Source: an uncultured Clostridia bacterium
Lineage (GTDB): Bacteria > Bacillota > Clostridia > Oscillospirales > Ruminococcaceae
Direction: 5' to 3'
Assembly (NCBI GenBank): GCA_947584375.1
Contig: CANPWL010000008.1
Coordinates: 1 to 64,000 of the forward strand
DNA length: 64,000 nucleotides
Under the pieces are notes generated by a model, which worked only from the letters and a program-made list of their open reading frames with translations, was not told the DNA's origin and made no database searches. The position numbers were made by a program, and so were the translations under genes. Shown one piece after another: positions 7,416-14,552 of this stretch; positions within the stretch are counted from its first letter, which is position 1, and each line of letters begins with the position of its first letter.

Positions 7416-7865
7416 TTAACTCTTTGAGCATTCGCAAGAAGCTTCATTTAGGTTTTGTCCGCAAATGAAGCACAAGCCCTTGCAGTCTTCCTTACACAAT
7501 ATCTTTGAAGGCAGCTGCAACAATAAATCAGAAATAGCCAACTCATTCAAGTCAAGAATCATATTTTCACATACAATATGCTCATTATCCTCATTTTTTG
7601 AATTCTGAACAAGAGTATGTTCAAAATCATAATTATATTCCTGCTCAAACCTTTTAAGACATCTGTCGCAAACGTGATTTAAAACAAAACTTATATGATA
7701 TTTTATAGTTACAATTCCTGCTCTGTTTTCAACTTCTCCGTTTATCGATACAGGTGTTTTGAATGAAACCGCCTTATAACCGTCAAGTTCCTCCAGCGGA
7801 ATTTTATAACTGATTTCTTTACGTTCACCAACTATATCAAATAGCTGCTTTAGTTGTATTTCCAT
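7416..7865 (-). CDS. yceD: YceD family protein (DUF177)
   Basis: A 149-residue protein with the DUF177 features: an all-beta body, CDRCLKRF in the middle and a Cys-rich tail (CKEDCKGLCFICG...CEC) that probably binds zinc. The family is almost always next to rpmF and has been linked to large-subunit or 23S rRNA biogenesis. Its exact role here is inferred from that context. The ATG is preceded by GAGGTGTTAGG and a consensus promoter 28 bases upstream. Confidence 0.88.
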   Translation of the reverse strand: MEIQLKQLFDIVGERKEISYKIPLEELDGYKAVSFKTPVSINGEVENRAGIVTIKYHISFVLNHVCDRCLKRFEQEYNYDFEHTLVQNSKNEDNEHIVCENMILDLNELAISDLLLQLPSKILCKEDCKGLCFICGQNLNEASCECSKS

Positions 7866-7962: not shown

Positions 7963-8364
7963 TTACATAAACACTTTTACTTTGTCAGGAAGTTCCTGTG
8001 CATCAGTTGATACCGTAAACACAATATTTACATCCTTTGCGTGAGCGTTAAGCTTTTCAAACATTGCACCAAGTTCATCATAATCTCTTCCGCCTATTTT
8101 TAAAATACCGTCTATAAATATTTCCTGAATATCATAATTTCCTGCAAGCATACCCATAACAAAACCATAGAACGTGTCATAACTTTCAATTGCATATTCC
8201 TCAGCATCAACAAGCCTTACGCTGTGAGGAATATTATAAGTAAGTTTCATTCCTTTCTCAATACAAACAACATTTCCGGTAGCTTTGTTTGAAGCCTCAG
8301 TAATTTTGTCAACTAAAATCTTTGTTTTTCCTGTTCCTTTTTTTCCTGTTATAATGCTAATCAT
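7963..8364 (-). CDS. small P-loop protein of unknown function
   Basis: A 133-residue protein that begins directly with a Walker A motif (GKKGTGKT, residues 7-14). A Walker B-like stretch (EIFIDG) lies near residue 83 and a short C-terminal strand with a polar TVST sensor-like motif follows. It is much shorter than typical P-loop ATPases and has no other recognizable domain. The start is supported by GGAGTG about 6 bases upstream. It stands alone between yceD and pgi. I do not recognise a named family, and nucleotide binding is the only role I would infer. Confidence 0.65.
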   Translation of the reverse strand: MISIITGKKGTGKTKILVDKITEASNKATGNVVCIEKGMKLTYNIPHSVRLVDAEEYAIESYDTFYGFVMGMLAGNYDIQEIFIDGILKIGGRDYDELGAMFEKLNAHAKDVNIVFTVSTDAQELPDKVKVFM

Positions 8365-8459: not shown

Positions 8460-9791
8460 TTATTTGAGTTTTTCTTCAAGTGCTGCCTTCTGATCCTCAT
8501 ATCCCGGCTTACCTAAAAGAGCGAACATATTCTTTTTATAGCTTTCAACACCCGGTTGATTGAATGGATTTACGCCAAGTATATATCCCGATACAGCACA
8601 CGCTTTTTCAAAGAAATAAACCATCTCACCGAAGTTCTCTTCATCAAGCTCATCAACCTCAATGACTATATTAGGTACACCTCCATCAGTATGTGCCAAA
8701 ATTGTCCCCTCGTAAGCCTTTCTGTTAACGTCAGACATATTCTGATTCGTCAGGAAATTCAAGCCGTCTAAGTTTTCATCGTCCGCATTAAGGAATAGAT
8801 CCTGCTTAGGTTTCTTTATATCAACAACTGTTTCAAACATTATTCTTGAACCGTCCTGAATAAACTGACCTAAAGAATGAAGATCGGTAGAGAATGTAGC
8901 AGACGATGGGAATATGCCCTTATTATCCTTACCCTCGCTCTCACCGTAAAGTTGTTTCCACCATTCAGCCATCATTGTAAAGCTAGGCTCGTATGAAACA
9001 AGCATTTCAACCGATTTGCCCTTTCTGTTGAGAATATTTCTTATAGCAGCATATTTGTAACAATCATTACTGTCATCCTTTGAATATTTCTCCATTCCAT
9101 GCCTTGCGCCAGCCATTATCTTATCAATATCACAGCCCGCAACCGCAATAGGAAGAAGTCCAACTGCGGTAAGTACTGAAAATCTTCCGCCTATATCATC
9201 TGCAATAACAAATGTTTCATATCCCTCTTTATCAGAAAGCTCCTTTAAAGTTCCTTTTTTTGCATCAGTTGTAGCAAAGATTCTGTTCTTTGCCTCATTC
9301 TTGCCATACTTATCCTCAACAAGCTTCTTAAAAATTCTGAAAGCAAGAGCAGGTTCAGTGGTCGTACCAGACTTAGAAATTACATTTACACAAATGTCCT
9401 TGCCATCGCATATTGACAAAATTTCCTGAAGATAAGTAGGATTAATATTGTTACCGACAAAATAAATGTCAGGTGTGTCTTTTTTAAGATTATTATAAAA
9501 CGGGGATTTTAAAAGTTCAATAGCGGCCCTTGCTCCTAAATATGATCCTCCAATTCCTATAACAATAAGAATATCAGCTTTTTCTTTGATCCTATCAGCC
9601 GCAGCTTTAATTCTTTCAAACTCGTCCTTATCATAATTAACGGGAAGGTCAACCCAACCTAAAAAATCATTTCCAAGACCGTTTCTATTTACAATTGTAT
9701 TATGTGCATCACTAACCTGCACTTTCATTGCTTCTATCTCATGTTCACTAATAAAAGACTTGAGATACTTTGTATTTAACCTAATTGCCAC
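8460..9791 (-). CDS. pgi: glucose-6-phosphate isomerase
   Basis: Pgi interconverts glucose 6-phosphate and fructose 6-phosphate. The 443 residues match the short Firmicutes type. Visible signatures are [11 protein letters not shown] (sugar-phosphate loop), [10 protein letters not shown] and the C-terminal region [14 protein letters not shown]. The start is GTG at 9791-9789, with AAAGGA 9 bases upstream; no in-frame ATG is better placed. Confidence 0.97.
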
Positions 9792-9915: not shown

Positions 9916-11121
9916 CTAAAATCTTAGTAAACTTAATAAAAGTTTACTAAGAGCGCCTACAAAATCTATGCGTTTAACATCATATTTTGTATATATATTG
10001 TGTTTAAGCAATACCTTTGAATCCATACTGAACACAAGCTCTCCAACTTTAGTGTTTTTCTTAACGGGAGCCTCCAGCTCGCTTACTCTGTTGAATGAAA
10101 CAGTTATATTCCCTGCTGTTCCTCTTTTAATGACAAGTCTTGCTGTTCCCTCAACATAAGTTTCAGTCTTTAAATCAACTCCATGATTGACATTTATCTG
10201 CTCTATTGCGTCCTTTGGGACCTCAGGTGCATACACATCATATCCGTCGAACCCTAAGTTCAGCATTGCCTTTGCATCAGCAGCTCTGCTGTCACTATCC
10301 TTTGTATTTAGAGCAACGGCAATTAAATTCATTTTGTTACGTGAGGCAGATGCTGCAATACAGTTGCCTGCCTTTTCAGACGCACACGCTTTCAGTCCGC
10401 TTATACCTTTATATTTTCTGACTAACGTATTCAAGTTCACAAGTTCTGCCTTTCCGCCTCTGACGCTGTCCATCCACGTTGTAAAAAAGCTTTTAAGATT
10501 AGTATACTTCAGCAGCTCGGCAGAAAGAACAGCTATATCTTTTGCAGTAGATATATTTGAACCGCTTATACCCGTACTGTCTACAAACGTCGTATCTTTC
10601 ATACCTAAAGATTTTGCTCTATTATTCATAACCTTAACAAATTCTTTTTCACTTCCTGAAATTCCCTCTGCAAGTACAACACAGGCATCGTTGGCATTTC
10701 CGATAGTAACCGACTTCAAAAGCTCCTTAACACTGATTTTTTCACCAACATCAAGCCATATCTGCGAGCCTTTCATAGAATTTGCCTCAGTGGATGTTAT
10801 AAGCTTCCTGTTAAGTGTAAAATTCTTATCAGAGTTGAGCTTTTCTGCTGTCAGAAGTATAGTCATAAGCTTAGTAAGATAAGATACCGGCATTTTGTCG
10901 TCAGCCTTTTTGTCATATATAACGGTTCTAGATGAAGCCTCATACAATATTGCTGCTTTTGCTGTCACTGAAAAACCTGATGCTTTTTGACTTTTTGATG
11001 CATAAAGGGACCTCGCTGTTGACTCAGTAGAACTCATACCATCAGCAAATGCCCTTGAAAAGAAAAGTGACATAGTTATAAAACAAAGTAATAATATTAA
11101 TAATTTTTTTACAGCTTTCAC
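9916..11121 (-). CDS. DacF/PBP5-like D-Ala-D-Ala carboxypeptidase homologue with degenerate active site
   Basis: A roughly 400-residue exported protein with the fold of a low-mass penicillin-binding protein: signal peptide, peptidase S11 domain, then a C-terminal beta domain and a hydrophobic end. All three catalytic motifs are altered. The SxxK position reads YLTK (Tyr codon 10881-10879), the SxN position reads NAN (10698-10690), and KTG reads KAC (10392-10384). The flanking family residues are intact and the frame is open, so this looks like a pseudoenzyme, not a decayed gene. Start: GTG at 11121 has GAGGGAG 7 bases upstream. ATG at 11127 and 11139 are alternatives with poorer spacing. It may bind peptidoglycan or regulate other enzymes; that is inference. 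Confidence 0.8.
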   Translation of the reverse strand: MKAVKKLLILLLCFITMSLFFSRAFADGMSSTESTARSLYASKSQKASGFSVTAKAAILYEASSRTVIYDKKADDKMPVSYLTKLMTILLTAEKLNSDKNFTLNRKLITSTEANSMKGSQIWLDVGEKISVKELLKSVTIGNANDACVVLAEGISGSEKEFVKVMNNRAKSLGMKDTTFVDSTGISGSNISTAKDIAVLSAELLKYTNLKSFFTTWMDSVRGGKAELVNLNTLVRKYKGISGLKACASEKAGNCIAASASRNKMNLIAVALNTKDSDSRAADAKAMLNLGFDGYDVYAPEVPKDAIEQINVNHGVDLKTETYVEGTARLVIKRGTAGNITVSFNRVSELEAPVKKNTKVGELVFSMDSKVLLKHNIYTKYDVKRIDFVGALSKLLLSLLRF

Positions 11122-11294
11122 TTGCATACTCCCTCTCATTGAATTTAATTTTCTTATATAAATGCATAATTGTTACTTTAATAAATTTTATGCTAAAGAC
11201 AAAGGTTTATGCTATTATAAATAATGAGTTTAGAGATAAAGGAGTTATAAATTAGTAAACATCAGAAATATTCATTCGATGTATAAAATTATAT

Positions 11295-13252: not shown

Positions 13253-14194
13253 CTATGACTTAAATGAATAACCGTCTTTTTTCATACAATCAATAAAGTC
13301 ACCTAATATATTTGTATTTGTCTTAGAAACAGAATGGAGCAGATAAATTGCTCCGTCATGTTTGGCGTCAGTCACCTTTTTTAGTGCCTCTTTTTCATCC
13401 GGTTGATTGTCTACATTCCAGTCCTCATAAGCGAAACTCCACATAACTGTTTTATACCCGCACTCATTTACAAGCTGCAAAATTCTTTCTGAAAACTCAC
13501 CTCTTGGCGGTCTGAACTCTGTCATTTCGTATCCGAATTTTTCTTTAACATAATTGTGAAGCCCCATAATCTCCTGTTTTGCCTCATCAATAGAAATCTT
13601 CGGAAGTGACGGATGTGACACTGAATGATTTCCAACAGTGTGTCCTTCATCGATCATTCTTTTTACAAGCTCAGGATTTCTTTCAGCATAATCCTGTAAA
13701 ATAAAAAATGTAGCTTTAACTTTCTTCTTTTTTAATATGTCAAGTATCTTTTCTGTGTATCCGTTTTCGTAGCCTTGATCAAAGGTAAGATAAATTGTCT
13801 TTTTCTTACTTTTTTTGTTATCTGTTTTCTTTGCCATTGCAATTGCATTATACTTTGAATACTTTTCATTAAAATCAATTGCACCCTGAGGCTTGTTTTC
13901 ACTGTCAACTATTAATCCTTGTCCGTAACCTATCAGAGTATTGTCAAGTGTTGATAAATCAACCGATTTTCCTGCCATAAGAGGTTCCGCACTAGCCGAG
14001 CTTGATTTTGCCGAGCTTGATGAAGGTTCTTGCGTTACAGTTTTAGCTTCAGAACCAGTTTTTGTTTCTCTGTCGGTGTTCATTGAAGAATCTTTAATGC
14101 TTTCATCAAAATCCTTGGTATTAGGTTCTATATTATTTGCACATCCGGATAATAATAATCCCAAAGATATAACTAAACCTAAAATATATTTCAT
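13253..14194 (-). CDS. pdaA: PdaA-like polysaccharide deacetylase lipoprotein
   Basis: A 313-residue predicted lipoprotein with lipobox LSGCA followed by a Ser/Thr/Lys-rich linker. The catalytic NodB domain carries TFDQGYENGY (motif 1, in the PdaA form TFDQG), NHSVSHPSL (the metal-binding His pair) and FRPPRGEFSE (motif 3). PdaA enzymes remove the acetyl group from muramic acid on the way to muramic delta-lactam in spore cortex; other members act on vegetative peptidoglycan. The ATG at 14194 has AAAGGA 8-9 bases upstream and directly opens the lipoprotein signal; the ORF extends upstream without ribosome-site support. Exact substrate is inferred. Confidence 0.88.
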   Translation of the reverse strand: MKYILGLVISLGLLLSGCANNIEPNTKDFDESIKDSSMNTDRETKTGSEAKTVTQEPSSSSAKSSSASAEPLMAGKSVDLSTLDNTLIGYGQGLIVDSENKPQGAIDFNEKYSKYNAIAMAKKTDNKKSKKKTIYLTFDQGYENGYTEKILDILKKKKVKATFFILQDYAERNPELVKRMIDEGHTVGNHSVSHPSLPKISIDEAKQEIMGLHNYVKEKFGYEMTEFRPPRGEFSERILQLVNECGYKTVMWSFAYEDWNVDNQPDEKEALKKVTDAKHDGAIYLLHSVSKTNTNILGDFIDCMKKDGYSFKS

Positions 14195-14259
14195 TTTAAT
14201 CATCCTTTCTAAACTTAGGATAACCAAATGCAAAAATACAATGCTGTTAATTAATAGAA

Positions 14260-14290
14260 AAAATAAAAAGAGACAGCACAATGCTGTCTC
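14260..14290 (-). terminator. terminator after ireB
   Basis: Minus strand GAGACAGCA (14290-14282), 3-base loop, TGCTGTCTC (14278-14270), then TTTTTATTTT. It is a strong intrinsic terminator. Confidence 0.9.
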
Positions 14291-14306
14291 AAAGAACAAA
14301 AACAAT

Positions 14307-14552
14307 TTATTCACCTAAATAAGACTTAACTAATACCTGAAGTAATTCATCTCTGTCAATATGACGGATCAAGCTTCTTGCATTGTTGTAAGTTGTTATG
14401 TAGGTCGGATCCTCTGAAAGAATATAACCTACTATTTGGTTGATAGGATTGTATCCTTTTTCTTTTAGTGCCTGATAGATTATTGTGAGATTTTTTTTAA
14501 GTTCAGTTTCCTTATCTTCTTTAACAGAAAAGGTCATTGTTTGATCATACAT
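14307..14552 (-). CDS. ireB: IreB family regulatory phosphoprotein (UPF0297)
   Basis: An 81-residue protein with the UPF0297 core: YDQTMTF at the start, then [32 protein letters not shown] and a final VKSYLGE. In Enterococcus, IreB is phosphorylated by the PASTA kinase IreK and tunes cephalosporin tolerance. The ATG at 14552 has AGGAGG 9 bases upstream; the ATG at 14561 abuts the ribosome site. In many Firmicutes this gene sits with alaS and ruvX, but here it stands alone with its own promoter and terminator. Confidence 0.92.

Follow-up and report, generated by a model that had tools for sequence, protein, structure and literature searches.

The S11 DD-carboxypeptidases of the DacF/PBP5 type, which are abundant penicillin-binding proteins (PBPs), determine how much pentapeptide the wall contains. 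The locus considered here lies within a 64,000-nucleotide stretch of Clostridia DNA that was analysed as a whole (the window) and raises the question of why a protein of this type should persist with all three of its catalytic motifs changed. A first-pass annotation had placed the gene at the correct coordinates, with no strand given, and had proposed a maintained pseudoenzyme that might bind peptidoglycan or beta-lactams without turnover, or regulate a partner.

The gene is encoded on the minus strand (Table 1), and its coding part, excluding the stop codon, spans 9919-11127. The longest possible start in the list of open reading frames is ATG 11139, and a GAGGGAG sits just 5' of the start at ATG 11127 or GTG 11121; residues are numbered here from GTG 11121 as residue 1. 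At the N-terminus, A26 and G28 are unchanged across the 15 orthologues of the window genus, and a predicted model of the protein has a helix at residues 2-22 followed by a low-confidence segment at 24-45. The two domains correspond to Pfam families PF00768 (whole-protein E 4e-52) and PF07943 (E 5e-9). The model ends in a helix at residues 387-400, whose hydrophobic moment is in the top 1-2% of the protein's 15-residue windows.

Table 1. Features of the degenerate DacF gene and its conserved neighbours (window coordinates).
Feature	Position	Strand	Remarks
S11/DacF-like pseudoenzyme CDS (very probable)	9916..11127	minus	stop TAG 9916-9918; start ATG 11127 or GTG 11121
Signal peptide	11044..11121	minus	residues 1-26; cleavage expected after AFA-26
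Peptidase_S11 domain	10300..10983	minus	residues 47-274; Pfam match
PBP5_C domain	9970..10209	minus	residues 305-384; Pfam match
C-terminal amphipathic helix	9919..9963	minus	residues 387-401; expected membrane anchor, PBP5-like
SxxK equivalent YLTK	10870..10881	minus	Y81 in Ser position, K84 kept
SxN equivalent NAN	10690..10698	minus	N142 in Ser position, N144 kept; clade hallmark
KTG equivalent KAC	10384..10392	minus	K244 kept; A245-C246 replace TG
pgi (glucose-6-phosphate isomerase)	8460..9791	minus	conserved 3' neighbour of pseudo and intact DacF genes
Small P-loop protein	7963..8364	minus	second conserved downstream neighbour
YceD/DUF177-like protein	7416..7865	minus	third conserved downstream neighbour; assigned by sequence resemblance

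By homology and fold, the window protein is a member of the S11 family, or class C PBPs. Its predicted model (mean pLDDT 92; 94 for that of an intact family orthologue, L160) retains the two-domain fold of PBP5, and among solved structures PBP5 and PBP6 match it best (Z 38-39, rmsd mostly 2.2-3.3). The protein lacks all three of the motifs that mark an active serine DD-carboxypeptidase: SxxK, SxN and KTG. Pairwise alignments to three solved DD-carboxypeptidases have no gaps around motif 1; in them the catalytic Ser corresponds to Y81, the SxN Ser to N142 and the TG of KTG to A245-C246. The three changes described by the first-pass annotation are confirmed by these S11 alignments and by Pfam, and we infer that the protein would no longer trim D-Ala or be acylated by beta-lactams.

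The same pattern recurs well beyond the window. All 15 sampled genomes of the window genus carry an orthologue with [YH]xTK, NAN and KAC, at 38-80% protein identity. A draw of 148 genomes from the GTDB family gave one strong match in nearly every genome; among the 120 of these from outside the window genus that were read for motifs, NAN is combined with a degraded SxxK and/or KTG in 33, representing 26 additional genera, and the remainder mostly have intact PASxTK/SAN/KTG. The degenerate set analysed further comprises 62 rows, namely the NAN forms including the window-genus sequences, with loci recovered by an alignment-based scan of genome contigs where a single-sequence scan had given no relative. 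NAN is present in 62/62 of these rows, the set having been chosen by NAN and proving to be the same 62 rows as a clade in the DacF tree.

Within this clade, subclade A (24 rows) has the form G[TSYV]xxK/NAN/K[AYSE][GSAC], is mostly GTxxK or GSxxK and keeps the Gly of KTG in about half of its members. Subclade B, whose 38 rows include the window, is mostly [SG][HY]xxK/NAN/Kx[CYFAS]. All three motifs are non-intact in 55 of the 62 rows, and the other seven, which belong to subclade A, keep the Ser; loss of chemistry appears less certain in subclade A than in subclade B. At the nucleophile position, subclade B has His or Tyr in 37/38 rows, Arg in one and Ser in none. Since the serine that beta-lactams acylate is replaced in this subclade, covalent beta-lactam binding is unlikely. 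The maintained pseudoenzyme of the first-pass annotation is strongly supported, its functional suggestions less so. Neighbouring lineages are partly degraded (L168, SLTK/SAN/KTA; L140, SLNK/SAN/KYG), and their retention of SxxK and SAN alongside an altered KTG suggests that KTG was the first motif to decay. Among the best-scoring orthologues from the other families of the order (about 40 loci from two partly overlapping searches), no degenerate DacF was found, all being intact. A separate degradation was observed outside the clade, in L119 (4995-6179, minus), which reads YAASLGQ/SAN/KAC, the Lys of motif 1 having become Gln.

Pseudo and intact DacF genes occupy the same genomic position, sharing pgi, P-loop and YceD-like neighbours. 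The pgi gene is found at +1 on the same strand in 54/60 pseudo and 46/73 intact loci, followed by the P-loop and then the YceD-like gene. A maximum-likelihood DacF tree gathers every NAN form into one clade (SH-aLRT 98) with two subclades. Proteins encoded by pgi carry no DacF-motif information and so provide an independent tree; in it, 56 pseudo genomes form one clade (support 97), requiring one change of state, and the two-way split is repeated with sizes of 22 and 34. The agreement between the NAN clade and the pgi-tree clade points to one conversion, in place, with vertical inheritance. The simplest history is, therefore, that the orthologous DacF was converted once where it stood and then passed down by vertical descent. 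Nor is pseudo-DacF a duplicate beside an intact DacF, as there is one strong match per genome and the other S11 matches are more distant paralogues. Beyond what the first-pass annotation could see, this is no lone oddity: orthologous DacF underwent an ancient in-place conversion, in the ancestor of a sizeable clade within a single Clostridia family.

Selection has held the converted gene at least as firmly as its intact counterpart. Pairwise dN/dS (Nei-Gojobori; dS exceeds 1 in some pairs) is 0.06-0.12 for pseudo pairs vs 0.12-0.26 for those intact DacF pairs with usable dS, and constraint on pseudo-DacF is no weaker than on intact DacF. The comparison of close relatives proposed in the first-pass annotation accordingly indicates that the gene is kept. 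In the S11 domain of the 15 genus orthologues, 22/26 motif-segment residues are invariant, compared with 53/202 elsewhere (Fisher p = 1e-8, an indicative value as the 15 sequences are related to each other). No other part of the protein is as invariant across the genus as these segments. Intact orthologues have 52 invariant positions, of which the clade lacks A80, S81, S142, H189, T245 (which remains in 1/62 rows), T248 and mostly G246, all of them, H189 excepted, within or next to the motifs. The clade retains K84 (61/62), N144 (62/62) and K244 (62/62), together with D145 and G184. The former active site thus looks to have been remodelled under a constraint of its own rather than left to drift. 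With orthologues in 27 genera, one origin and dN/dS of about 0.1, the protein is very probably a pseudoenzyme that has lost its catalytic residues and is selectively maintained.

What the maintained protein does can be framed with less assurance. Overall, a good case can be made that a DacF orthologue was converted once and has been held under strong purifying selection as a pseudoenzyme, probably a stem-peptide binder or partner regulator that works without turnover. Once exported, the protein should be tethered to the external surface of the membrane by its amphipathic C-terminal helix, and the cleft, with both lysines and the Asn, would bind the stem peptides of peptidoglycan or the tail of a protein partner without turning them over. 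In its bound state, pseudo-DacF might position or regulate other wall enzymes. PBPs hold their substrate by its carboxylate and backbone, through the lysine of KTG and the Asn of SxN. Retention of the Lys and Asn residues, with the nucleophile and its helpers lost, would fit non-hydrolytic binding, and the kept K84, N144 and K244 mildly favor peptidoglycan binding or partner regulation. For the mycobacterial S11 enzymes, binding of the stem's diaminopimelate portion has been attributed, by inference, to the SxN motif (PMC4281109). Binding of a ligand or partner specifically through the old cleft is nevertheless a tentative proposal, and the retained lysines could serve fold stability only.

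A competing view is that the protein persists as a scaffold only, valued for contacts made by its surface, its C-terminal domain and its membrane anchor, while the cleft holds no ligand. Precedents exist among pseudoenzymes that regulate wall hydrolases, including DipM (PMC10336132) and LytM factors (PMC8416486), and the fold (in the predicted model) and anchor are intact. An unused cleft should drift, however, and this one does not: the invariance of the former active-site segments in the genus, and the fixation of NAN, K84 and K244 clade-wide, count against scaffolding as the whole explanation, which we regard as doubtful.

Less probable by far is an enzyme of altered chemistry in which Ser80 (as SxxxK), His/Tyr 81 or some other residue does the work. 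Its attraction lies in Ser80, which directly precedes Y81 and is invariant in all 15 genus sequences, and in the retention of both lysines. Residue 80 is, however, aligned to the Ala of PAS, being Ala in 82/82 intact orthologues, and in the 62 rows of the degenerate clade it is mostly Gly (36) or Ser (22). The loss also extends to H189 and to the Ser of SxN and the Thr of KTG. In the models of both the window protein and L160, the motif-1 helix runs for 18 residues from one and the same aligned position, K minus 4. This unchanged register, together with the residue-80 pattern, makes a one-residue slip of Ser80 into the nucleophile position unlikely, if less certainly so for the window genus with its invariant Ser80. 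A different active-site Ser, the finding that the first-pass annotation considered fatal to its reading, is thus not indicated by the ungapped alignment or the predicted helix. A new catalytic or metal-binding role for Cys246 was rejected for the clade, as Cys occurs in just 33/62 rows.

A decoy that shields the true targets of beta-lactams or glycopeptides is highly improbable: an expected surface location and a related fold would suit such a role, but the window's subclade has no serine to acylate, the protein is old and vertically inherited, and nothing points to drug selection. A decaying pseudogene or assembly error might be suspected from the missing catalytic residues, but this is refuted by the open frame in all orthologues, the low dN/dS and the recurrence in 27 genera; indeed, the presence of all three changes in 15/15 genus genomes and the recurrence of NAN with an altered SxxK or KTG across the 62-row clade exclude chance and sequencing error as well, and the frame and signal peptide are intact as first described, the fold and export signal in prediction.

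If DacF carboxypeptidase activity was lost in this clade, it may have been taken up elsewhere. SxxK and KTG are both intact in two further S11 genes of the window genome, paralogues of the sort that the earlier reading had suggested looking for. One of them adjoins ytfJ-like and rluB-like genes, in a gene order reminiscent of DacB. The third S11 paralogue of the genome (L003, contig C19, 979-2391, minus; also L033) has SAC for SxN (IPSACEAA) with PASLTK and KTG intact, and a hydrophobic, transmembrane-like segment at its C-terminus. S11 gene counts are similar in the pseudo and intact groups (4.1 vs 3.8), and gain of a spare DacF in pseudo genomes was not seen in the family genome matches or in these counts. 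Genes for VanY-type (M15) peptidases average 3.2 in 37 pseudo genomes vs 1.7 in the 43 others among 80 family genomes, with 2.3 in the nearest other relatives, although these means ignore kinship, and the pseudo genomes all belong to a single clade. The excess would be compatible with DD-carboxypeptidase activity having passed to these enzymes, or with compensation. It is appealing to imagine a receptor, anchored in the membrane, whose NAN/Lys cleft senses the condition of stem peptides (for example, D-Ala-D-Ala ends) and which controls wall enzymes, possibly the expanded VanY-type peptidases that took over this activity, but we consider so specific a scheme unlikely. Sporulation loss was rejected as a driver of the conversion, Spo0A being present in 78/80 genomes over both groups.

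Comparison with known systems places pseudo-DacF closest to its active relatives. With DacF/DacA (PBP5, PBP6) it shares the S11 family, the DacF locus, the two-domain fold, signal peptide, amphipathic anchor, both lysines and the SxN Asn; it differs in the replacement of the catalytic Ser, SxN Ser, KTG Thr and Gly, and H189, and an acyl-enzyme is predicted to be absent. The degenerate LytM (M23) regulators EnvC, NlpD and DipM (PMC8416486, PMC10336132) are likewise dead wall peptidases kept for regulation, which control or activate wall hydrolases; they have an unrelated fold and family, and are analogues rather than relatives. The same applies to the CspC/CspA pseudoproteases of Clostridioides difficile (PMC6636752, PMC12880746), dead Clostridia proteases reused in signal sensing, which come from a protease family unrelated to S11 and act in spore germination. 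In Mycobacterium tuberculosis, Rv2911 and Rv3330 (PMC4281109) represent S11 clades that have adapted the surroundings of the site in ways of their own; Rv2911 was rejected as a known degenerate S11, all three motifs being intact in both proteins. Structure entry 4p0m carries the word 'evolved' in its title, where it denotes directed evolution for solubility. We found no report of a pseudo-PBP or pseudo-S11 clade of this kind in the open-licence papers searched.

Most likely, then, in a large group of gut Clostridia, DacF has been replaced at the same gene position by a non-catalytic wall-binding or regulatory protein: the clade kept the protein and dropped the chemistry. For these genomes the S11 label 'D-alanyl-D-alanine carboxypeptidase' is probably wrong as to function. 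The paired intact and dead orthologues at one locus also offer a natural experiment that could part the non-enzymatic from the enzymatic role of PBP5-type proteins.

Several minor observations accompany this locus. A 13-pair terminator-like stem at 9922-9952 (minus) overlaps the last codons of the pseudo-DacF gene, so that the same nucleotides specify both the membrane-anchor helix and the stem, and a separate promoter-like site for pgi lies at 9854-9826. In another genome (G018, contig C3, 943504-952949), three S11 matches in a span of under 10 kb have identical scores and probably stem from recent tandem duplication, if not from an assembly repeat. At 13253-14314 (minus), the window encodes a polysaccharide deacetylase with TFDQGYENGYT, in which Gln presumably stands at the usual second Asp of NodB and which we take to resemble the PdaA type (TFDNGYEN).
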